A DNA stretch of 64,000 bases from Gammaproteobacteria bacterium. Its GTDB lineage: Bacteria > Pseudomonadota > Gammaproteobacteria > CAIRSR01. Below the pieces are notes generated by a model. It saw only the letters and a program-made list of their open reading frames with translations, was not told the origin of the DNA and did no database searches. Location of the stretch: the NCBI GenBank assembly GCA_963575655.1, contig CAUYTY010000228.1:1-64000 (forward strand), given 5' to 3'. Within the stretch, counting starts at the first letter, position 1; every line of letters starts with the position of its first letter. Position numbers and translations under genes: made by a program. Below are positions 25,845 to 35,418 of this stretch, piece by piece.

Positions 25845-26835
25845 TTAGTCAAACACAAACCGATTTCGTCCATTTTGCTTGGCTTTATATAACCGTTCGT
25901 CCGCCCGTCCAACCAACAAAAACGGTGACGCTTCTCTAGAAGGTATCAGAGTCGCTCCTCCCATACTAATCGTGATATGTGACGCGACCTTGGAATATTT
26001 ATGAGGAATACGTAGTTTATTAATATTTTCTATCAACCGATTCCCCATAAAAACTAGGCCCGAGGAATCCACTTTTGGTAGGATGCAAACAAACTCCTCC
26101 CCGCCATAACGCGCCACCAGATCGGAAAGAGCGAGCGGTGGACGTCGCCAAGGTTTTAGCAATCGTTTTCAGACAATCATCTCCGGCAAGATGGCCATAA
26201 TGATCGTTAAACAACTTAAAATAATCGACATCAATAACAATCATTGATATTGGCGAACTATCACGTAATGCTCGACTCCATTCCTGTATTAAATATTCTT
26301 CGAATTTTCTTCGGTTCGGAATCCCGGTTAACCCATCTGTAACAGAAAGATTCTCCAGCATTTTATTCAACACTAATAATTGTTTATTTTTTTCAGATAA
26401 TTCATCATTCTTCCGTTGTAAATCCTCTTTGATGCGTTGATAGGAAATAGTGTTGCGGCATCTTGTCAACAGAACCAATGGACTGCTAGGCTTGCGGATA
26501 AAATCTACCGCCCCCAGTTCCAACCCAACGGTCTCATCGTTCTGACTCTCTTTTCCTGTCAGGAAAATTACTGGGATATTTTTGGTTAAGGGATTATTCT
26601 TTAACTGTCGACAGGTTTCATAACCATCCATGGCCGGCATCACCACATCAAGGAGAATAAGATCCACACCGCCAATATTAGCAATTTTTATTGCAAGTTC
26701 TCCGCGGGTTGCGATCTTTATAAAGAAAAATGAGTCCAAAGCCGATTTGATGATTCTAATTTGCTCAGGCTGATCGTCGACCAGTAATATTGTGCCTTCT
26801 TTGGAATCGGTGATCTCTGATATAGGCTCAATCAT
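25845..26835 (-). pseudogene. Response regulator-diguanylate cyclase, frameshifted
   Basis: The start ATG at 26835 overlaps the stop of the histidine kinase gene (ATGA). Frame one gives a receiver domain (TILLVDDQPEQIRIIKSALD, phospho-Asp in LILLDVVMPAMDG, VIFLTGK) and the first half of a GGDEF domain (VTDGLTGIPNRRKFEEYL, VDYFKLFNDHYGHLAGDDCL), but after STARSF it runs into nonsense and stops at 26020. The next frame resumes LSDLVARYGGEEFVCILP through to NGRNRFVFD at 25845. The shift is at the AAA run 26126-26128, one base too many. Read through, it would be a c-di-GMP synthase with an intact GGEEF. Either a real loss, a sequencing error, or slippage; the first two are likelier. Confidence 0.88.
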
Positions 26836-29800
26836 ATCTGAATGCCTTCTTCTTTCGCCCAATCGCGGAAAAGGTTCAAGCAAAGCTCGAAATCATAAGC
26901 ATCCGAGGCAAGCTGAATGGATTTCAACATTTTTCGCTGATGTCTGCCTCGCGCTAAAGGAACCAGTCTTTCTACAATATTTTCAATCGAAGAGTCAAAG
27001 GAGATAAGTAGTTTGATAGCTTTATGAAACAAGGGGGTTAGTTCTTCAGGACTTGCAGCAATCTCCTGTTTATTTTCTATAATTAATTCTGGTTTCTGGA
27101 TCTTGGTTTCGATAGCAAATACAATCTGCTCTAGTTTGTCTTTCGCCATTTCAATCAGTTCCGAAATATCATCCAATCCCCCCGGAATTCTGGATTTTCC
27201 TTCGATCTTATCCGCCAAGTCCGCCAATTGCACAGCACCGATGGCAGCGGCAACTCCCTTTAAGGAATGGGCTAGATGCCCTAAGGTTATAGCATCTTTG
27301 GATGCAAAACTCTTCTCCATTTGCTTACAGGTCAATCGCTGATTTCCGGAGAACTTGAGTAGAACTTCCTGATAAAGTTTTGTATTTCCTCCCATATTCT
27401 TTAGTCCCCTGGTCGCATCAATCCCTGGAATTAACGGAGTTAGAGGTATAATATCTTCCCAAAAATCAGGTGCCAATATGGCGGTATGGTCTGGAATTAA
27501 ATTAAGATCGAACTGGATCCATTTTGCTAAAATATTATATAACTTCGCAGGCACTACTGGTTTGTCGATATAATCATTCATGCCAGCATCTAGACACTTA
27601 TCTCGAACATTGGGCATGGCATTGGCAGTTATGGCAATGATTGGAACGTCCTTATATGCTGGTATTTTTCGAATCTCTCGCGTAGCTTCGTAACCATCCA
27701 TAATCGGCATCTGAATGTCCATGAGGATACCATCAAAGTTCCCTTTTTTTGTTGCTTCAATGGCTTCCTTTCCGTTCTCGGCAATCGTCAGACGAACACC
27801 AATCTTCTCTAATAACTCCAGGTTGATTTGCTGATTAATTTCGTTGTCTTCGACGAGCAGGAGATGAACTCCTGTATTTTGATTATTGAATAGTTTTCTT
27901 GAGGAATCTTCCATTTTTTCCGTATATTTTAAACCGTACCTCCCAGGGGAAGGGAGACAAGAAGTTTCCATTTCTTCTAGCGATTTTTCTAGTCGTACCG
28001 TGAAGATGAAACGGCTTCCAATCCCGAGAGCGCTTTCGACATAGATCTCTCCCTTCATCATTTCTACTAACTGTTTGGAGATGATTAAGCCAAGGCCAGT
28101 ACCTCCGTATTTTCGAGTTGTTGAGGAATCTACCTGCGAGAACGCCTGAAACAGTCTTTCCTGTTGTGCCTGTGTCATGCCGATGCCAGTGTCACAAACT
28201 GTGAATTGAAGCAAGACATCTTTTTGTGTTTCATCCAGCAATTTTATGATGATGGACACTGCACCCTTTTCAGTAAACTTGACAGCATTGTTACTTAGAT
28301 TGATGAGAATTTGTCCCAACCGTAAAGGGTCACCCACGAAGTAGGAAGGTACGTTTACGTCAGTATCCAGAAATAATTCCAGTCCCTTTTCGGAAGCTTT
28401 CACGTTAATGACGGATGCCAGATTGTTTAATACCTCTTCCAGTGAAAAATTCACATGCTCCAGATCCAACTTACCAGCCTCAATTTTGGAAAAATCAAGG
28501 ATGTCATTGAGCAGACGCAACAAGGTGTTGGCGGAATTGTGGATTTTACGCAAATAGTCGAGCTGCTGATTGGTCATCCCGGTTTGCATGCATAGGTAGG
28601 ATAAACCGATAATGGCATTCATGGGGGTGCGAATTTCGTGACTCATGTTGGCCAGGAATTCGCCTTTCGTTCGGTTAGATTGCTGGGCGGCTTGCTCAGC
28701 TTGTTTGATGCCTTCGATGTCGATATTACAACCATGCCATTTTACAATCTGTCCCTCTGAATTTCGGACGGGGGTTCCTCGCACTTTAAACCAGCGGTAA
28801 ACACCATCATGCCGACGAATACGGCCTTCAAGGTCATAGTTTTCACCGGTTTGTAGCGAGTGTATCCAGACAGCTTGGATTCGGTCGCGATCCTCTGGGT
28901 GAATATGATCGAACCAGCGAGTGATATCAGTTTCGCCCGTGTAAACCCACCATTGTTGACTGACATACTCGAGCCCGCCGTCCGGGGTGCAGGCCCAGAC
29001 GATGTGCGGCATGGCCTCGGCCAGGTTGCGCCAATTTTCGCGGCTACGCTCGAGTTCGGTTTGTGCCCGAATTCGTTCTGTGATGTCGACCACAATAGCT
29101 AGGGTGAACTTTTCTTCTCCGCTGTCAAAGCGATTCAGCGACAACTCGATGGGGAGTTCGCGACCTTCCCGATGCTGGGCGTGTAATACACGTTTGGAAT
29201 GATAATTGTAGTTGGATGGATTTCTGAAAAATACCTGGCGTTGTTCGACATGTTTTTCTCGTTGCGCCGTTGGTATTAAAACTTCCACGGGTTGTCCGAT
29301 TAGCTCGTTCGCGGCGTAGCCCAATAAGGTTTCCAGCGCAGGATTAATCATGACGATTTTACCGTCGGCGTTGGCAACCAAAAGACCATTGGTCGCCGAG
29401 GTAAATATTAATTTGAGGTAATTCTGGTTTTCTCGCAGTGCTATTTCCGCACGCTTGCGTTCGGTAATGTCATTTATCCCTATCAGGGCCTGAATTTTTC
29501 TTTTATAGTAAATAGGTAACGCCCAGTAAAGACCAATCCATTTCTTTCCCGTATCTTGACGCGTTACATGTAATTCAAACTCGCTGACAGGTTCCCCCTT
29601 TAATGCGCGCATCGCTGGCCATTCTTCTGGTAATACGGCATCGCCATTGGCATTGGTGCATTCAAAAAGAGGTATGAAATCCTCAATTTCTGACAAGGGA
29701 CGGTCGGGCGAGATGCCATGCAGGTCGTACATGGCGGGGTTTGCCCAAGCTATTTTTCCATCACTATCGATCAATACCAGACTGTCGGGAATGCCGTCGA

Positions 29801-31202
29801 GAATTACTTCCAAGAGTCCCTCGCTTTCCTTGAGCGCAGCATTGGCTCGTTGGCGTTCGGTAATATCTTGGACAAAGGTAAAGAAGCGATCGTCCGAAAA
29901 GGCAGTACTGACCTCGATATCGATGATCTCCCCATCTTTTCGCCGCCAGCGGGTTGTAAAACGGTCGCTTCCGGAGGCCATGATTCGACCCATGCGGGCC
30001 CCGATTTCATCGGGGGATTCAATTATCTCAAGATCGGAAATATACAGGGTCGTTATTTTTGCTGTGCTGTAGCCGGTAATCTCGCTCAGGGCAGCATTGC
30101 AATCGATAATCCTACCCGCCTGATTCACGACCAGATAGCCGTCGATTGAAGTTCGGAGTGCTACCCCGTGGCGTTCCATCAAGATAGCCTGCTCGGCAAG
30201 TAACACCAGTGATTTCTTACGCCATAACAGCCAGAAAATGCTTATGAGCAAAAGCAGTAGAACGGACGCTACAACAAGAGTAATCACCCCTACTACCCTA
30301 GCCAAATAATCAATCTCAGTACGGTCGACTTTCGTCATCATGATCCAGGATGTGCCAGAAATCCGCTGGTTATCTCCGAGCACCTCCACGCCACGATAGT
30401 CATACCCCGTCAGCAGACCAAACTTGCCATCCACCAGTGTCCTTTCAGCCAGAGTTTCCCGACCATTACCAATAGGCAGTCGAAAAGACAATGGCGAAAT
30501 ATTAGGCATGAAACGCAGTGGGCTTAGGAATAGGACCTCGTTACCTTCCTCCCGTCGCACTAGGATGGTTTCCATGGACAGACTGAAGGTGGGTTGAGAC
30601 TCCAAAATGGGGAACAAATTTTGCCGGGCATCTAGTTCAAGGTAGACGGCACCTACCACCAAGTCGTTCTCATTGTCGTTGGCATATATCGGATGAGCAA
30701 TGCCAAAAACGATATCGCCTTCCATAGCAAAATGTAGATCGACTACAGCACTTTGGTGTGTTTCGATAACCTTTTGCAGGGTCGATAGCTCAACCGGTTC
30801 AAGTCGGTTGGAAGTGACTGATGCAATAACCTGAAGAAGTTTGTCAACTACGAGAATACGGCGATATCCATATGACTGATAAGTGCTGGTAACGGCTTTG
30901 TTTAAGCGTAAACCCTCCTGAACCACATCGGTGGCACTCAAGGTTTTCCAGACAGAGGGACGCGCGACAAAAACATCGGCATCAGCATGACGTTCGGCCA
31001 ACATCTTTTCAATCTGGGTCACCTTTATTTTGGAAAAGGCATCTAATTCTTTCTGTCCATTGTTATCCAACTGGTTGGCAACAAAGCGAAACGACCCATA
31101 GGCGCTGACCAAGACAACCAGACTAACAAGCGCAAACAGGGCAAGCAGGGCCGTAACGGGTGCTTTCAGCGCCTGATCGCTGGAATTCTCATAAATATTC
31201 AC
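26832..31202 (-). CDS. Large hybrid sensor histidine kinase (sensor-PAS-HK-REC-HPt)
   Basis: A 1456-residue membrane kinase; GTG start at 31202 with AGAGG six bases upstream. Helix one is near residues 17-37 and a second near 305-327, bounding a periplasmic Cache-like sensor. Four or more PAS domains follow ([55 protein letters not shown]). HisKA is [20 protein letters not shown] (His near 854), then an HATPase with [13 protein letters not shown] and GGTGLGL, a receiver with [12 protein letters not shown] and phospho-Asp in [14 protein letters not shown], and an HPt with [15 protein letters not shown] (His near 1307). This BarA-like phosphorelay sits in the Kai operon and overlaps the receiver-GGDEF gene, so it may be the output or input kinase of the clock. 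Confidence 0.93.
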
Positions 31203-31244
31203 TGGTTACCTCTTATTGGCCATTCACCATTGTCAGGTAATCAT

Positions 31245-31541
31245 TTATAGTCCTTTTGGAACAGGTGGATAAGCGAGGTTTGGTTCAAACAGGCTACTAG
31301 ATCGTTTTGTAAAATCTCCGATTAGGCGACGCATTGGTCGTGGCAACTCACGGATCAGGGTAGGAATGGCAAGAATCTTGCCTTCTCGTGCCCGATCGGG
31401 GTGTTCGAGAATATCGACGATCTCCAAGGTGTAGTCTCCATTAGTCTCTGTTTCACAGAGATGCCGCAAATTTACAATCGCTTGTTCTGTATAAGGTGTA
31501 TGACCGGCAATATAAAGCGTAAAACAATGGTGAATGATCAT
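31245..31541 (-). CDS. kaiB: KaiB, canonical type
   Basis: A 98-residue thioredoxin-like KaiB. FTLYIAGHTPYTEQAIVNL aligns with the cyanobacterial LYVAGNTPNSVRAL start, EIVDILEHPDRAREGKILAI with [20 protein letters not shown], and PTLIRELPRPMRRLIGDF with PTLAKVLPPPVRKIIGDL. KaiB is a fold-switching protein that binds the CI ring of phosphorylated KaiC and captures KaiA. It lies between kaiC and the histidine kinase gene, with gaps of 44 and 42 bases on the same strand. It has a C-terminal proline-rich extension (NLAYPPVPKG) beyond the usual end. Confidence 0.93.
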   Translation of the reverse strand: MIIHHCFTLYIAGHTPYTEQAIVNLRHLCETETNGDYTLEIVDILEHPDRAREGKILAIPTLIRELPRPMRRLIGDFTKRSSSLFEPNLAYPPVPKGL

Positions 31542-31585
31542 GGATGTTTTCTCGCCAGGAAAACTTTGTGGTACTGTCCGTCGAA

Positions 31586-33100
31586 CTATTCAAACATCTT
31601 ATCAAAACGATCAGAATCCCTTATCGGTGTGACTGAAGCAACGCCAAGCATGATGTTCTGAACGTTTTGGAACGGTTCTCCAACATGCATACCGTCACCG
31701 TCGATGGTAAATTCGCGAATGCGCTTATCATGTTGCGAACCGCGCATCTTAATGACCGCAATTCCTCGACGTAGGATACCGTTGATCTCCACATAGCGTA
31801 ATAAAGCAATAACATCGGTAATGGTTGATATGTGGGTCTCAGTGACCGACTCACCACCGGAGAGTTGTGGGGTGGTGCTGGTGAATAGACTACACACCCG
31901 CTCCTGTTTCATAAAAGAGGTCAAACCAATCACGAACTCTCGGAAATTGCGGACACTAGCTACCCGTTCCATAGCAGAGATACTGTCCATAATTAGACGT
32001 CGCGGCTTGAAGCCAAGAATTTCACGGCGGATCACCAACAGGTGATCCTCAAGTCCCATTGCTTCTGGATATTGGCAGACGATGCGGAGTAGTCCTTCCT
32101 GTTCCCACTTGAAAAAATTAATACCCCAAGAGGAGGCATTGCGTAGTAATTGCTCACGGGATTCCTCGTAAGCCAGTAGCAACACTTTCTCGCCGCTACG
32201 ACAGCCCTCGGCAGCAAACATGGCGGACATTAGAGTCTTGCCACCACCGGTTGGTCCACTGACCAAGAAAATTGAATCCCGGAAGATGCCGCCATTGGTC
32301 ATGAGATCCAGGTCGGAATTCCCGGTACCAGTGCGATCATTGGAGGATTCTTGGGTAAGTTCCATCGCTGACAATGCCAAAATTGTGATGCCGGTATTGG
32401 TAATTGTGAAGGGATATTCACCCTTGCAATGTACGTCACCTCGCATCTTCAATACTTGGATGGTGCGGCGGCATTTTTCTTCGAGGAGGACATTGCGTAC
32501 GACGATAACGTTGTCGGAGATGAACTCTTCGACGCCGTGGCGTGAAATATGGCCATACTCGTCGAGACGTTCGGCGGTCATCAGGGTAGTTACACCGAGT
32601 TCCCGCATCACTTCGGTGATACGGAAAATTTCCAGTCGCACTTTGGAGGTATCGGAAAACTGGTGAAACAGTGATCCAATCGAATCGATTACCACAAAAT
32701 CGGCATTAATTTGTGTTATCGCTTGACGAATTTGAAAGATTAATCCTTCGAGGTTGTAATGACCTACTTCTTCGGCAGGAATTGGATCTGGGGAGCCATC
32801 AACGAAGGCTAGTTTGTTTCGCTTTATGAGTTCCATCAAATCCCAGCCGACACGCTTGACATTGCGCATAATTTCGATCGGCTTTTCCTCCAGGGTAACA
32901 AAAATCCCAGCGTGACCGTGCTGCGTAATGCCCCGATAGAGAAATTCGACGCCGAAAATGGTCTTACCTGACCCAGAGGTACCCACCAGGAGGGTGGTAC
33001 GGCCCTGTGGCAACCCGCCCATCGACAGATGCTCAAATCCCTCGATACCTGTGGGTATTTTGGTTGGTGCACGAATATCCAATGTTTCTAGATTTTTCAT
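31586..33100 (-). CDS. kaiC: KaiC circadian clock ATPase/autokinase
   Basis: A 504-residue double RecA-like ATPase. CI carries Walker A GTSGSGKT, catalytic glutamates in VTLEEKP and Walker B VVIDSIGSLF. CII carries GPTGGGKT, LAYEESREQL and LIMDSISAME. The phosphorylation segment reads VTETHISTITDVIALLRYVE and keeps the adjacent Ser-Thr pair (S431/T432 of Synechococcus KaiC) and a Thr at the T426 position; the A-loop-like tail is shorter than in cyanobacteria. KaiC forms hexamers and slowly autophosphorylates and hydrolyses ATP. ATG 33100 has GGAG ten bases upstream. It is flanked by two kaiB genes in one operon. Confidence 0.96.
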   Translation of the reverse strand: MKNLETLDIRAPTKIPTGIEGFEHLSMGGLPQGRTTLLVGTSGSGKTIFGVEFLYRGITQHGHAGIFVTLEEKPIEIMRNVKRVGWDLMELIKRNKLAFVDGSPDPIPAEEVGHYNLEGLIFQIRQAITQINADFVVIDSIGSLFHQFSDTSKVRLEIFRITEVMRELGVTTLMTAERLDEYGHISRHGVEEFISDNVIVVRNVLLEEKCRRTIQVLKMRGDVHCKGEYPFTITNTGITILALSAMELTQESSNDRTGTGNSDLDLMTNGGIFRDSIFLVSGPTGGGKTLMSAMFAAEGCRSGEKVLLLAYEESREQLLRNASSWGINFFKWEQEGLLRIVCQYPEAMGLEDHLLVIRREILGFKPRRLIMDSISAMERVASVRNFREFVIGLTSFMKQERVCSLFTSTTPQLSGGESVTETHISTITDVIALLRYVEINGILRRGIAVIKMRGSQHDKRIREFTIDGDGMHVGEPFQNVQNIMLGVASVTPIRDSDRFDKMFE

Positions 33101-33125
33101 TTATTTATGTCTCCACGTATTTAAC

Positions 33126-33410
33126 TCAATCTATCGTATCAACATCAAGGCCGATAGTTCGAGTTACTCTTTCCGAGTCTGTTAAATGCCCAATAAATCT
33201 GCGAATCGGCAACGGTTTTGTACGAATTAGCAATGGTGTGGCCAATACACGGTATTTTACAACAGCCTCCGGTTGAACCGAGAGGTCGATCATCTCCAAT
33301 TCGCAAGTTTTTCCCGCGCGCTCGACTAGTCGCATCAGCGACTTTTTCAATTCGCCAGCGGAAGTATTTTCTCCAAAAAATAACAATGTAAATTTGAAAT
33401 TCACTGCCAT
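33126..33410 (-). CDS. Divergent KaiB-like protein
   Basis: A 94-residue KaiB-family protein, more divergent than the one at 31245-31541. FKFTLLFFGENTSAGELKKS replaces the usual LYVAGNT start; VLATPLLIRTKPLPIRRFIG matches the ILATPTL.K.LP.P.R..IG core, and it keeps the IGLD ending seen in cyanobacterial KaiB. The start ATG overlaps the stop of the KaiA-like gene by one base (TAATG), indicating coupled translation. Two KaiB forms in one operon suggest different partners, for example KaiC and the KaiA-like protein or kinase. The thioredoxin-like fold is also used by SasA-type sensors, but here it is a free-standing protein. Confidence 0.85.
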   Translation of the reverse strand: MAVNFKFTLLFFGENTSAGELKKSLMRLVERAGKTCELEMIDLSVQPEAVVKYRVLATPLLIRTKPLPIRRFIGHLTDSERVTRTIGLDVDTID

Positions 33411-34408
33411 TAACTCGAATCCTCATTATTTGAAAATTTCATCGCCCAATCGCGGTAGATGTCGACCAAACGCCCCAATATTCTAATAAGGACCAACCGA
33501 GCATCCATTGAAAACGATCGCTCTACGATCGGCAAGGCTCTTTCTTCATTTTCCCTTAATACGCGTTGGTGAAATCTTACTACTTCACGAGCACCATAGC
33601 CCCTGGCGGCAAATAGTCTAGCGACGGACTGATCATACTCAGGCAGTTCATTTTCACCTGCTCTCAGCATCCGCACGGAGCGGTAAACCAGGGCACGGTA
33701 TTTGGCCTCGATGGCGACATCATCCTTGGGTAGGTCACAGGTGGGACATAGCTTCGACGCCAAAGGTACCTTTGAACGATAGCACTGGTAGCATCGAGCG
33801 ACCTCGGCGCTATACCACTGATGCTGTTTATTGCGCCAAGCCTGTTCCAGGGCGCGGGCCAGATATTTACGCTCGTAGGCGTAGCGCAAAGCACGAATTA
33901 GCAGCGCGCCACTGAGTTCGGACTTAACTAAATAATCCTGTGCTCCGTGCTGTAATGCTTCGATTCCCTGACGCTCATCGTGTTGTGTTGTCAGGACCAC
34001 CATCGGTAGATCTGAGGCTGACTGTTGCAAAACGTCCAGGGTTTGCAGACCCTGGCTATCCGGTAAATCCAGATTTAGAAGTATCAGATCAATCCCCCCC
34101 GCCAGTAGTCGTTCCAGGGTTGAGGAAAGTTGGTTGGTGATCCTGAGTTGGAAGGGATGCTCTACGACTACACTCGCTAACATCGTTCGAATGATTTCAG
34201 CATCCGTAGAATTATGTTCGACTAGTAAAACCCGCAATTTCTCACTAGGCATTTGAAGCTCGAAATGGGGCCTCTCGCCTTCGAGTGCTAGAGCGATTGT
34301 TACCAGAGGAAGCTGGATGTTTTTACCGTCCTGCTTGTCTGATGAGTTGGTTTCGTTGGCGAGCATTCGATCCAGGGAAGTCGGGGTTGAATTCTTTACG
34401 CATGTCAT
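33410..34408 (-). CDS. KaiA-like protein: pseudo-receiver, zinc ribbon and KaiA/RsbU-type helical domain
   Basis: A 332-residue protein (ATG 34408; TTG 34411 also possible). Residues about 58-180 form a receiver fold (LRVLLVEHNSTDAEIIRTML, VVLTTQHDER, GAQDYLVKSEL), but the phospho-Asp position is Asn (LILLNLDLPDSQG) and one acidic-pocket Asp is His (VEHN). A zinc ribbon follows (CYQCYRS, CPTCDLP). The last 95 residues pattern-match the KaiA C-terminal four-helix domain: IEAKYRALVYRSVRML, then EYDQSVARLFAARG, VVRFHQRVL, and ARLVLIRILGRLVDIYRDW, against KaiA YRQIILNYF, NEYLDEFVNNAF, VVEIHMELM and YRLTLIDVIAHLCEMYRR. It begins the kai operon. KaiA identity rests on domain order, alignment by eye and context; an RsbU-type domain is the alternative. 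Confidence 0.75.
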   Translation of the reverse strand: MTCVKNSTPTSLDRMLANETNSSDKQDGKNIQLPLVTIALALEGERPHFELQMPSEKLRVLLVEHNSTDAEIIRTMLASVVVEHPFQLRITNQLSSTLERLLAGGIDLILLNLDLPDSQGLQTLDVLQQSASDLPMVVLTTQHDERQGIEALQHGAQDYLVKSELSGALLIRALRYAYERKYLARALEQAWRNKQHQWYSAEVARCYQCYRSKVPLASKLCPTCDLPKDDVAIEAKYRALVYRSVRMLRAGENELPEYDQSVARLFAARGYGAREVVRFHQRVLRENEERALPIVERSFSMDARLVLIRILGRLVDIYRDWAMKFSNNEDSS

Positions 34409-35418
34409 CAATGTGAAAATATTAATACCACTCGATGTTAAAGTTTTTCGCGTTGACTCCAGGTTAACTATCCCACCAATGAACGTTGCTTACTTGCAAC
34501 CAACTAATTTTATTAGATCACATCCTCGGATGAGTGAGTGATTCTGCTGATGTCAAGGGTAGAATCCAATAAACACAATGGGTTACAAAAACTTGAAAAT
34601 TGAGTACCAAAGGGCAATACCCTAGCGATGTTGTCAACTATAGCTTCCGATTCGCCCATTGTAAAGCAGGGCTACCCACCTGAGTCACAACAGTTTAAAA
34701 ATCAATGAGTAATTGGGGTAGGTATCTTTTACGCACCTTCAAGAGGGTAGCCTTTCCCTCGTTGGCATGTATTGCGAGTTTAAGGGGGCGGTCCTCGAGG
34801 ACTAGACCAGTACCGAGCAATCAAACTGGCGTGTATATCTGTCATTTTGTGGATACATATTAGACATTATCGGAAACCCAAAACCTCACCCCCCGCCCCC
34901 CTCTCCTTAACAGGAGAGGGGGAGATTTTTTGCCTGTTCCGTTCAGGAGTTAAGCATAACAACGGAATAATTCTCCCCCTCTCCTGTTAAGGAGAGGGGG
35001 GCGGGGGGTGAGGTTTCCGATAATGTCTATTGCACAAACATCCCCTTAGCGTAAGATGTTGAATACTTTTACCCATGTTGGGTCATTTGCCAAGCCAAGG
35101 TAGATGGCCAATAATGTTGTCGTCCCGTGAGTTCCTCGGGACCTTGGGCCTGTGGAGAGGTCGTGAGACTTGGGGGGTTGTCGGCTGTGGTGCAATCTAC
35201 GTAAAACGCCCTATTAAGGGGTGTTTTTCTGGGGAAAACTAGGTAATTCCCATGGTAGCCTCGATGAAGCAGGAACCGAATACTGTTTATCTTCTGGGAT
35301 AAGTGGGTAGGCCATTCGGAGAATGGATTATCTGGTAGGTGCTGTGTTTAAACCTTAATCAAGTAAGATTCTTAATTTCCCAATCAAAAACGACCGCTAA
35401 TCGAGGAGCGACGCAACC
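34409..35418. other. Long intergenic region upstream of the kai operon
   Basis: About 1 kb without a convincing gene. It contains the kai operon promoter (minus strand), a large family A inverted repeat (34861-35029), and at 35090-35310 a sequence whose short broken frames (RDLGPVERS, LRKTPY, ASMKQEPNT or GSLDEAGTEY) recall the C-terminal end of TnpB genes of IS200/IS605-like elements; that resemblance is weak. The last part holds the leader of the small secreted-protein gene. Confidence 0.5.
34861..35029. repeat. Family A inverted-repeat element with long stem and T-run
   Basis: Begins TAGACATTATCGGAAACC and ends with its complement at 35029. The homology of the two arms continues inward through a C/G-rich tract and CTCTCCTTAACAGGAGAGGG, giving about 57 paired bases interrupted by a seven-base insertion in the left arm. 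The left arm itself holds CCCTCTCC-TTAACA-GGAGAGGG followed by ATTTTTT, a terminator-like structure. No coding capacity. Confidence 0.85.

Follow-up and report, generated by a model that had tools for sequence, protein, structure and literature searches.

A candidate Kai switch operon with a receiver-KaiA protein and a divergent KaiC in a relative of the Thiotrichales

The 64,000-nucleotide segment at positions 1 to 64,000 of contig CAUYTY010000228.1, hereafter termed the window (the whole stretch of DNA that was analysed), stems from a bacterium related to the Thiotrichales sulfur bacteria and contains a six-gene kai operon on its minus strand. By profile and fold comparison, the first gene of this operon codes for a member of the KaiA superfamily, in which a receiver is joined to a KaiA C-terminal domain. 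Its KaiC belongs to a separate, well-supported clade, termed beta here to distinguish it from the ordinary kaiC lineage (alpha); judged from the sequences, this clade has a KaiA and a KaiB of its own and looks new. We give a probability of roughly one half to the reading that the operon encodes a Kai phospho-switch or timer that works with a receiver-KaiA, belongs to the divergent beta lineage and has a kinase-to-cyclase output. A switch or timer of this kind is plausible, and a rhythm would be a prediction only.

All six genes are located on the minus strand, and their domains, apart from the KaiA C-terminal domain, were assigned by Pfam searches. The KaiA-beta gene (34411-33410; 333 amino acids) comprises a degenerate receiver, a coiled coil, a four-cysteine linker and the KaiA C-terminal domain, and starts with TTG at 34411 or, alternatively, with ATG at 34408. 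It overlaps by 1 base with the gene for the divergent KaiB-beta (33410-33126; 94 amino acids), which is followed after a gap of 25 bases by the KaiC-beta gene (33100-31586; 504 amino acids), after a further 44 bases by a second, alpha-like KaiB gene with an altered C-end (31541-31245), and after another 42 bases by a hybrid histidine kinase gene (31202-26832; 1456 amino acids). The receiver-GGEEF region at the end (26883-25845) is divided between two frames and overlaps the kinase gene; with the ATG at 26835 as the likely start, this overlap amounts to 4 bases. Thus, the run of six genes in one direction with overlaps or gaps of at most 44 bases, as described in the first-pass annotation, holds for order and spacing if the last gene is counted from ATG 26835, but the last gene itself consists of two overlapping frames. 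The Pfam matches of the operon proteins are far above chance, with E-values of 3.9e-15 for the KaiA-beta receiver, 3.5e-15 and 1.5e-24 for the two KaiBs, and 4.4e-113 for KaiC.

The first-pass annotation had placed a KaiA-like gene at the head of the operon, and had named its last 95 residues as the part to be compared with KaiA profiles and with the KaiA fold. Profile, model and structural matches agree with this assignment and identify a receiver and KaiA-domain protein, although it is mainly the sequence match that speaks for it. In the Pfam search of KaiA-beta the receiver was the sole match. We seeded a KaiA profile with five window-family proteins, using their C-terminal parts, and ran it against the 9166 stop-to-stop frames of the window and 82 loci (83 sequences in all), where it converged on 73. 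Each of these 73 frames lies at most 344 bases from a kaiB or kaiC frame, in loci that had been picked around kaiC. Among them are the KaiAs from 20 cyanobacterial loci that share a single KaiC clade; we took these KaiAs as standard. When the window's family was left out, the profile of the remaining 66 KaiA domains still matched the last ~105 residues of KaiA-beta with a domain E-value of 1.5e-12 (46.6 bits), and the KaiA-type four-helix domain was placed at 33730-33419. A profile of the 20 standard cyanobacterial KaiA domains alone gave no match to the window at E-values up to 10, which counts against the assignment inasmuch as intermediates are required.

The AlphaFold2 model of full-length KaiA-beta consists of the receiver, a long helix and four helices, and the C-terminal part alone was predicted with a predicted local distance difference test score (pLDDT) of 93. 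The closest structures to the latter model are KaiA C-terminal domains, namely 1r5q (Z 12.2, root-mean-square deviation 2.1, 87 aligned residues), 1q6a (Z 10.4) and 1r8j (Z 9.8); a further point against the assignment is the warning of the tool that Z below ~13 may, for helical bundles, reflect a common arrangement only. In this structural comparison (VIA), KaiA is closely followed by 3zta, a stressosome domain with Z 9.7, and by globins, which reach 9.0. Foldseek with the short C-terminal model likewise put KaiA chains at the head of the list, with weak E-values (best 0.1), and a fold search with the full-length protein returned receiver-containing proteins in the top 50 rows. Because the stressosome and globin rows are close, a generic four-helix bundle was considered, and the KaiA assignment is therefore carried by the profile and by gene order: the KaiA-beta gene directly precedes kaiB-kaiC, as KaiA genes do.

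The receiver of KaiA-beta (34240-33917), recognised by Pfam and present in the AlphaFold2 model, is degenerate. Its acceptor position is occupied by Asn113 (codon 34075-34073) in place of Asp, and its metal-acid position by His66 (codon 34216-34214). Since the acceptor Asp is lost, KaiA-beta is probably no conventional phosphorelay target, and we did not file it as a phosphorylatable KaiA3. The Asp is present in all ten other beta KaiAs examined. Elsewhere, a non-Asp acceptor was found in Hydrococcus (L094, Asn), with a less sure alignment in L050, and in Lamprocystis and Thiodictyon (L056-L058); in these three loci the residue seems to be Glu, Asn or Thr, and the Asp is retained in L059. The linker of KaiA-beta carries a double CxxC motif (Cys207, 210, 222 and 225; 33793-33737), a possible zinc or thiol site that occurs in the window's protein only among the 73 KaiA frames. 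In two Thiotrichales genomes, G001 and G003 (the latter from the window's genus), a stand-alone receiver gene precedes kaiA. It is absent from the window operon, and two receivers 45-49% identical to it are encoded elsewhere in the window's genome. In three loci the KaiA domain has no recognised receiver in front (L060, L066 and L091), and the N-termini of the latter two appear PAS-like by eye.

KaiC-beta contains two ATPase domains, in which both Walker A motifs and both catalytic Glu pairs are kept, as is the Ser-Thr phosphorylation pair in CII (HISTITD), and it is 69% identical to the KaiC of G001. Both KaiBs of the window score above the Pfam cut-off for the KaiB domain. KaiB-beta obtains 55.3 bits with the beta KaiB profile versus 47.3 with the alpha profile and shares a two-residue insertion with the other beta KaiBs, and the second KaiB obtains 100.1 bits with the alpha versus 84.9 with the beta profile. 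The division into a canonical and a divergent KaiB drawn in the first-pass annotation requires correction in one respect: it is the supposedly canonical, alpha-like protein that has lost the GLD found near the C-end of other KaiBs, whereas the divergent KaiB-beta retains it. We presume that these residues control fold switching and that changes of the Gly and the Asp favour the fold-switched state. A search of the window's genome revealed one KaiC, two KaiBs and one KaiA domain. A remnant of an alpha set in the window was ruled out by tblastn with nine G001 and G003 proteins, including alpha KaiA, KaiB and KaiC, which matched only the genes described here.

The beta lineage was delineated in a KaiC tree of 91 rows, computed by a quick method with the Shimodaira-Hasegawa-like approximate likelihood ratio test (SH-aLRT) as the only support and with a program warning of long branches. 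Here, the window KaiC falls into a 10-row clade (SH-aLRT 100, stem 0.61) with members from Thiotrichales (G001 and G003), Magnetococcales, Candidatus Magnetocorallium (Nitrospirota) and Rhodospirillales. It does not group with the cyanobacterial KaiC of receiver-KaiA loci, which we took as KaiC3. In line with two lineages, 25 KaiC matches (E at most 1e-100) in 21 KaiA-bearing genomes of the phylum are either 52-54% or 67-75% identical to the window KaiC, with none between; by coordinates, three of these genomes are those of L046, L048 and L049, and G415 matches that of L065. The same partition was seen with KaiA. The window protein scores 72.8 bits with the beta KaiA profile versus 22.3 with the alpha profile, and in four further loci (L176-L179) the KaiAs beside a beta kaiC score 145-154 bits with beta and 34-35 with alpha, the reverse being true for one alpha KaiA. 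As the alpha and beta profiles for KaiA and KaiB were built from loci pre-sorted by the KaiC tree, only the window and L176-L179 constitute an independent test of them. In the KaiA tree, beta and standard cyanobacterial KaiAs lie on one side of a 100/100 branch, opposite the other 44 rows, but no kinship was read from this because the branch leading to the cyanobacterial rows is 4.78 long. The KaiB tree, with its long branches and unsettled bootstrap, was used only together with the profile scores. L047, a duplicate of L039, was omitted from the three trees (2 KaiA, 3 KaiB and 2 KaiC rows), and no other row was lost to filters.

Beta KaiA, KaiB and KaiC co-occur in all 11 beta-kaiA loci (the window, L039, L040, L046, L048, L049, L052 and L176-L179), and an alpha kaiC is present alongside in six of them. 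Five carry kaiA-kaiB-kaiC twice in tandem: G001 (L039), G003 (L040), L049, L052 and L178. The beta set comes first in L052, L178 starts inside the first set, and the alpha kaiC of L049 is incomplete. In L177 the alpha and beta sets face each other, with KaiB-beta behind the alpha kaiC and the alpha-like KaiB before the convergent beta kaiA-kaiC, a placement that suggests a reshuffling of partners between the two sets. An alpha-like KaiB is found in 11/11 loci and KaiB-beta likewise, the latter in two frames in L176 and beside the alpha set in L177. A beta kaiC without a nearby beta kaiA was observed in L050, L051 and L053, where the same genome has an alpha-like kaiC and one KaiA-domain gene. 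Conversely, beta kaiC only was found, at thresholds of 1e-60 or 1e-100, in the window's genome (98% complete), which retains the beta set and an alpha-like KaiB, and in G438/L046 (96%), G402/L048 (98%) and G412/L176 (97%); L179 is a 4.3-kb contig and too small to show the presence of alpha. The alpha KaiCs of L039, L040 and L049 and the KaiC of L065 carry Ser-Ser (HFSSITD) in place of the Ser-Thr phosphorylation pair.

The statement that kai genes outside cyanobacteria usually lack kaiA proved to depend on the sample. Among the best 80 of 485 confirmed KaiC relatives in the genome collection, from which L039, L040 and the window were kept out of the counts, 29 loci were classified as cyanobacterial from their record titles and 51 as others. 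A KaiA-domain gene lies upstream on the same strand in 62/80 loci, comprising 29/29 cyanobacterial and 33/51 other loci, and on the opposite strand in L050 and L061. We thus do not regard kaiA as exceptional next to KaiCs closely related to that of the window, and receiver-KaiA orthologs outside cyanobacteria are also on record (PMC11372060). In random whole-genome samples, by contrast, a KaiA domain is rare, with 4/369 genomes of the class and 22/398 of the phylum, the window's own included. The KaiA domain is hence patchy across class and phylum.

For the same 51 non-cyanobacterial loci we found a kinase gene within 6 kb downstream of kai in at least 30, a GGDEF gene in at least 12 and both in at least 9; the true numbers may be higher, since some contigs stop short and overlapping genes escaped the count (e.g., in L060). 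Novelty of this neighbourhood is not supported. As far as the accessible part of PMC3164672 goes, it was recorded in 2011 that nearly all non-cyanobacterial kaiC-kaiB clusters under comparison are immediately followed by a gene for a histidine kinase or a GGDEF/EAL protein. In G001, the kinase and GGDEF genes are followed by a third KaiB-like gene (L039:2502-2849) and a gene for a PAS-type protein of 802 amino acids (L039:110-2518), whose long C-terminal part has no assignment.

The hybrid kinase of 1456 residues predicted earlier was borne out by the frame 31202-26832 and by its Pfam domains, i.e., PAS repeats, HisKA, HATPase, receiver and Hpt. As to the receiver-GGEEF protein likewise predicted, a receiver, the GGEEF motif and both GGDEF halves are present, but not in a single reading frame. 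The upstream frame (26883-26020) encodes the receiver with its acceptor Asp and the first GGDEF half, and the downstream frame (26162-25845) carries the GGEEF motif. Positions 2-72 of the GGDEF Pfam profile match the former and positions 73-161 the latter; since these halves adjoin, the frame changes without any part of the domain missing. The two frames cross near AGATCGGAAAGAGC (26132-26119), a 14-mer that corresponds to the 13-base Illumina adapter core plus one A. We take AGATCGGAAGAGC to be the Illumina adapter core removed by trimming programs. Given that the crossing string is one base longer than this core, the break is probably an assembly artefact: genuine reads with the core would have been trimmed at 26119-26132, leaving error-bearing reads to span the site. 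By chance, the window should hold only ~0.02 variants of the core with a one-base insertion. The adapter 12-mer has 0 matches in the window's own genome versus ~0.5 expected and 1 for the reversed control, a result that carries no weight either way. Adapter trimming may thus create false frameshifts in assembled genomes, possibly as a general cause.

Regarding the working of the proposed switch or timer, KaiA-beta dimers would use their four-helix domain to bind the C-terminal tail of KaiC-beta and would stimulate autophosphorylation of the Ser-Thr pair, and KaiB would bind phosphorylated KaiC and reverse it. Both steps are plausible by homology because KaiC-beta keeps its Walker A motifs, Glu pairs and HISTITD. 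The hybrid kinase may pass phosphate from His via Asp and Hpt to the receiver of the GGDEF protein, which would be a natural relay, as the kinase has a receiver and Hpt and the receiver of the GGDEF protein has its acceptor Asp. We infer that an intact cyclase would then set the level of cyclic di-GMP (c-di-GMP), through which attachment or motility might be affected. In the window's lineage, the phosphorylation input into KaiA appears to be lost (Asn113). It may have given way to a metal- or thiol-sensing role of the four cysteines or to ligand binding by the pseudo-receiver as in cyanobacterial KaiA; the accessible part of PMC12632262 reviews pseudo-receivers, including quinone binding by KaiA, and provides a model for such phosphate-free input.

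Several observations, in addition to the two raised above for the KaiA domain, weigh against this reading. In the trees, KaiA-beta and both KaiBs are on long branches, possibly a sign of relaxed constraint. Only 4/11 beta-kaiA loci are followed by a GGDEF gene (the window, L039, L049 and L178), and in G003 neither a kinase nor a GGDEF gene lies behind the kai genes, a hybrid kinase being encoded upstream and divergently. The GGDEF link to the kai operon is thus not conserved, even within the genus. Furthermore, the cyclase gene is frameshifted as assembled, and the 1456-amino acid kinase has no Pfam match to the KaiB-like SasA sensor domain at E-values up to 1. As it lacks this domain, we know of no contact between KaiC and the hybrid kinase. 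The distribution of the GGDEF gene and the arrangement in G003 slightly lower our confidence in the proposed switch or timer and raise it for the converse direction, in which environmental signals would reach the Kai proteins through the kinase and the GGDEF gene would be a bystander. The intact receiver Asp of the 10/10 other beta KaiAs fits the latter, because the kinase could act on KaiA there, and a cognate kinase of KaiA3, as yet unidentified, is suggested in PMC11372060. With Asn at the acceptor and His at the metal-binding site of the window's own KaiA receiver, however, we consider a mere input role doubtful.

Slightly short of even chances, in our estimate, is an hourglass or stress switch without oscillation, in which KaiC-beta phosphorylation would track ATP/ADP or redox and the kinase-cyclase pair would serve as the readout. 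Beta kaiC occurs in Thiotrichales, Magnetococcales and a magnetotactic member of the Nitrospirota, groups found in redox gradients. KaiBC hourglass timers are known (discussed in PMC11372060), yet a dedicated KaiA would be superfluous in a pure KaiBC hourglass. A self-sustained circadian oscillator, in which KaiA-beta, the KaiBs and KaiC-beta would free-run at ~24 h and gate c-di-GMP, seems unlikely. All three Kai components are present with the key KaiC residues, and the related KaiA3B3C3 set oscillates in vitro (PMC11372060); that oscillation was damped, however, and KaiA and both KaiBs of the window are strongly diverged. The alpha-like KaiB has moreover lost the residues presumed to control fold switching. 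More improbable still is a decaying remnant, with the alpha set lost first and KaiA-beta, the KaiBs and the cyclase eroding. The lost KaiA Asp, the long branches, the altered KaiB C-end and the frameshifted GGDEF gene would be explained, but the other five genes are open throughout, KaiC is 69% identical to that of G001 with its catalytic residues kept, the KaiA domain is predicted at pLDDT 93, and three other near-complete genomes retain beta without alpha kaiC.

The switch or timer proposed here has a close published counterpart in KaiA3-KaiB3-KaiC3 of Synechocystis and relatives, which gives a damped KaiC3 rhythm in vitro (PMC11372060). There, as in the window, a receiver and KaiA-domain gene lies before kaiB and, usually, kaiC. 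The same paper reports this receiver-KaiA fusion (KaiA3) with orthologs in five non-cyanobacterial genera, and an acceptor Asp that is usual but not invariant in KaiA3, Pleurocapsa being the exception. The window system differs by its separate KaiC clade, the missing acceptor Asp, the four-cysteine linker, the second KaiB, and the kinase and GGDEF genes in the operon. With the standard Synechococcus KaiABC it has in common the KaiA domain fold, the KaiC phosphorylation site and, according to the accessible part of PMC12632262, a pseudo-receiver at the KaiA N-end, whereas the KaiA sequence relation is weak and the window's kinase lacks a Pfam SasA-type sensor domain. The kaiC contexts in the accessible part of PMC3164672 resemble the window in the kinase or GGDEF/EAL gene behind kaiC/kaiB but include no KaiA-like gene outside cyanobacteria. 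In Candidatus Magnetocorallium XS-1 (L052), a beta and an alpha set are neighbours, and the genome has five kaiC copies, compared with one in the window's genome. The single paper found to join kaiABC and magnetotactic bacteria (PMC10278575) describes, in its accessible part, the kaiBC clusters of XS-1, treats the strain as kaiBC and assigns kaiABC systems to cyanobacteria. In listings of the open-licence literature, which do not cover subscription papers, we found neither a paper joining Thiotrichales, kaiC and circadian nor a description of the beta KaiC clade, and the titles and abstract beginnings therein describe no tandem kaiABC sets.

Taken together, kai sets outside cyanobacteria, including those with a receiver-KaiA, and their kinase or GGDEF neighbours are already known, and what looks new is the beta lineage, which often accompanies a standard set in tandem. 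Where two KaiABC sets lie together and each has a KaiA of its own, nature would have set up an experiment on the coupling of protein oscillators outside cyanobacteria; the window's lineage offers a testable reduced case, in which there is one set and KaiA has lost its phosphorylation site. If Kai were indeed connected with c-di-GMP, this would bear on a 2026 report, judged from its accessible part, of c-di-GMP shifting the cyanobacterial clock (PMC13001216). We offer as a speculation with rather long odds that KaiABC-beta is a distinct, unrecognised class of clock proteins, which evolved beside alpha, within the same operon or neighbourhood, as a paired and coupled timer of sulfur and magnetotactic bacteria and became stand-alone in the window's lineage, where four-cysteine redox or metal sensing would have been swapped in for the phosphorylation input of KaiA and c-di-GMP would be the output.

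An Rfam scan of the window gave no match at gathering level. The ~1 kb upstream of kaiA is devoid of long frames and contains more than one copy of an inverted-repeat motif rich in G/C, CCCCCTCTCCTTAACAGGAGAGGGGG (34890-35010).

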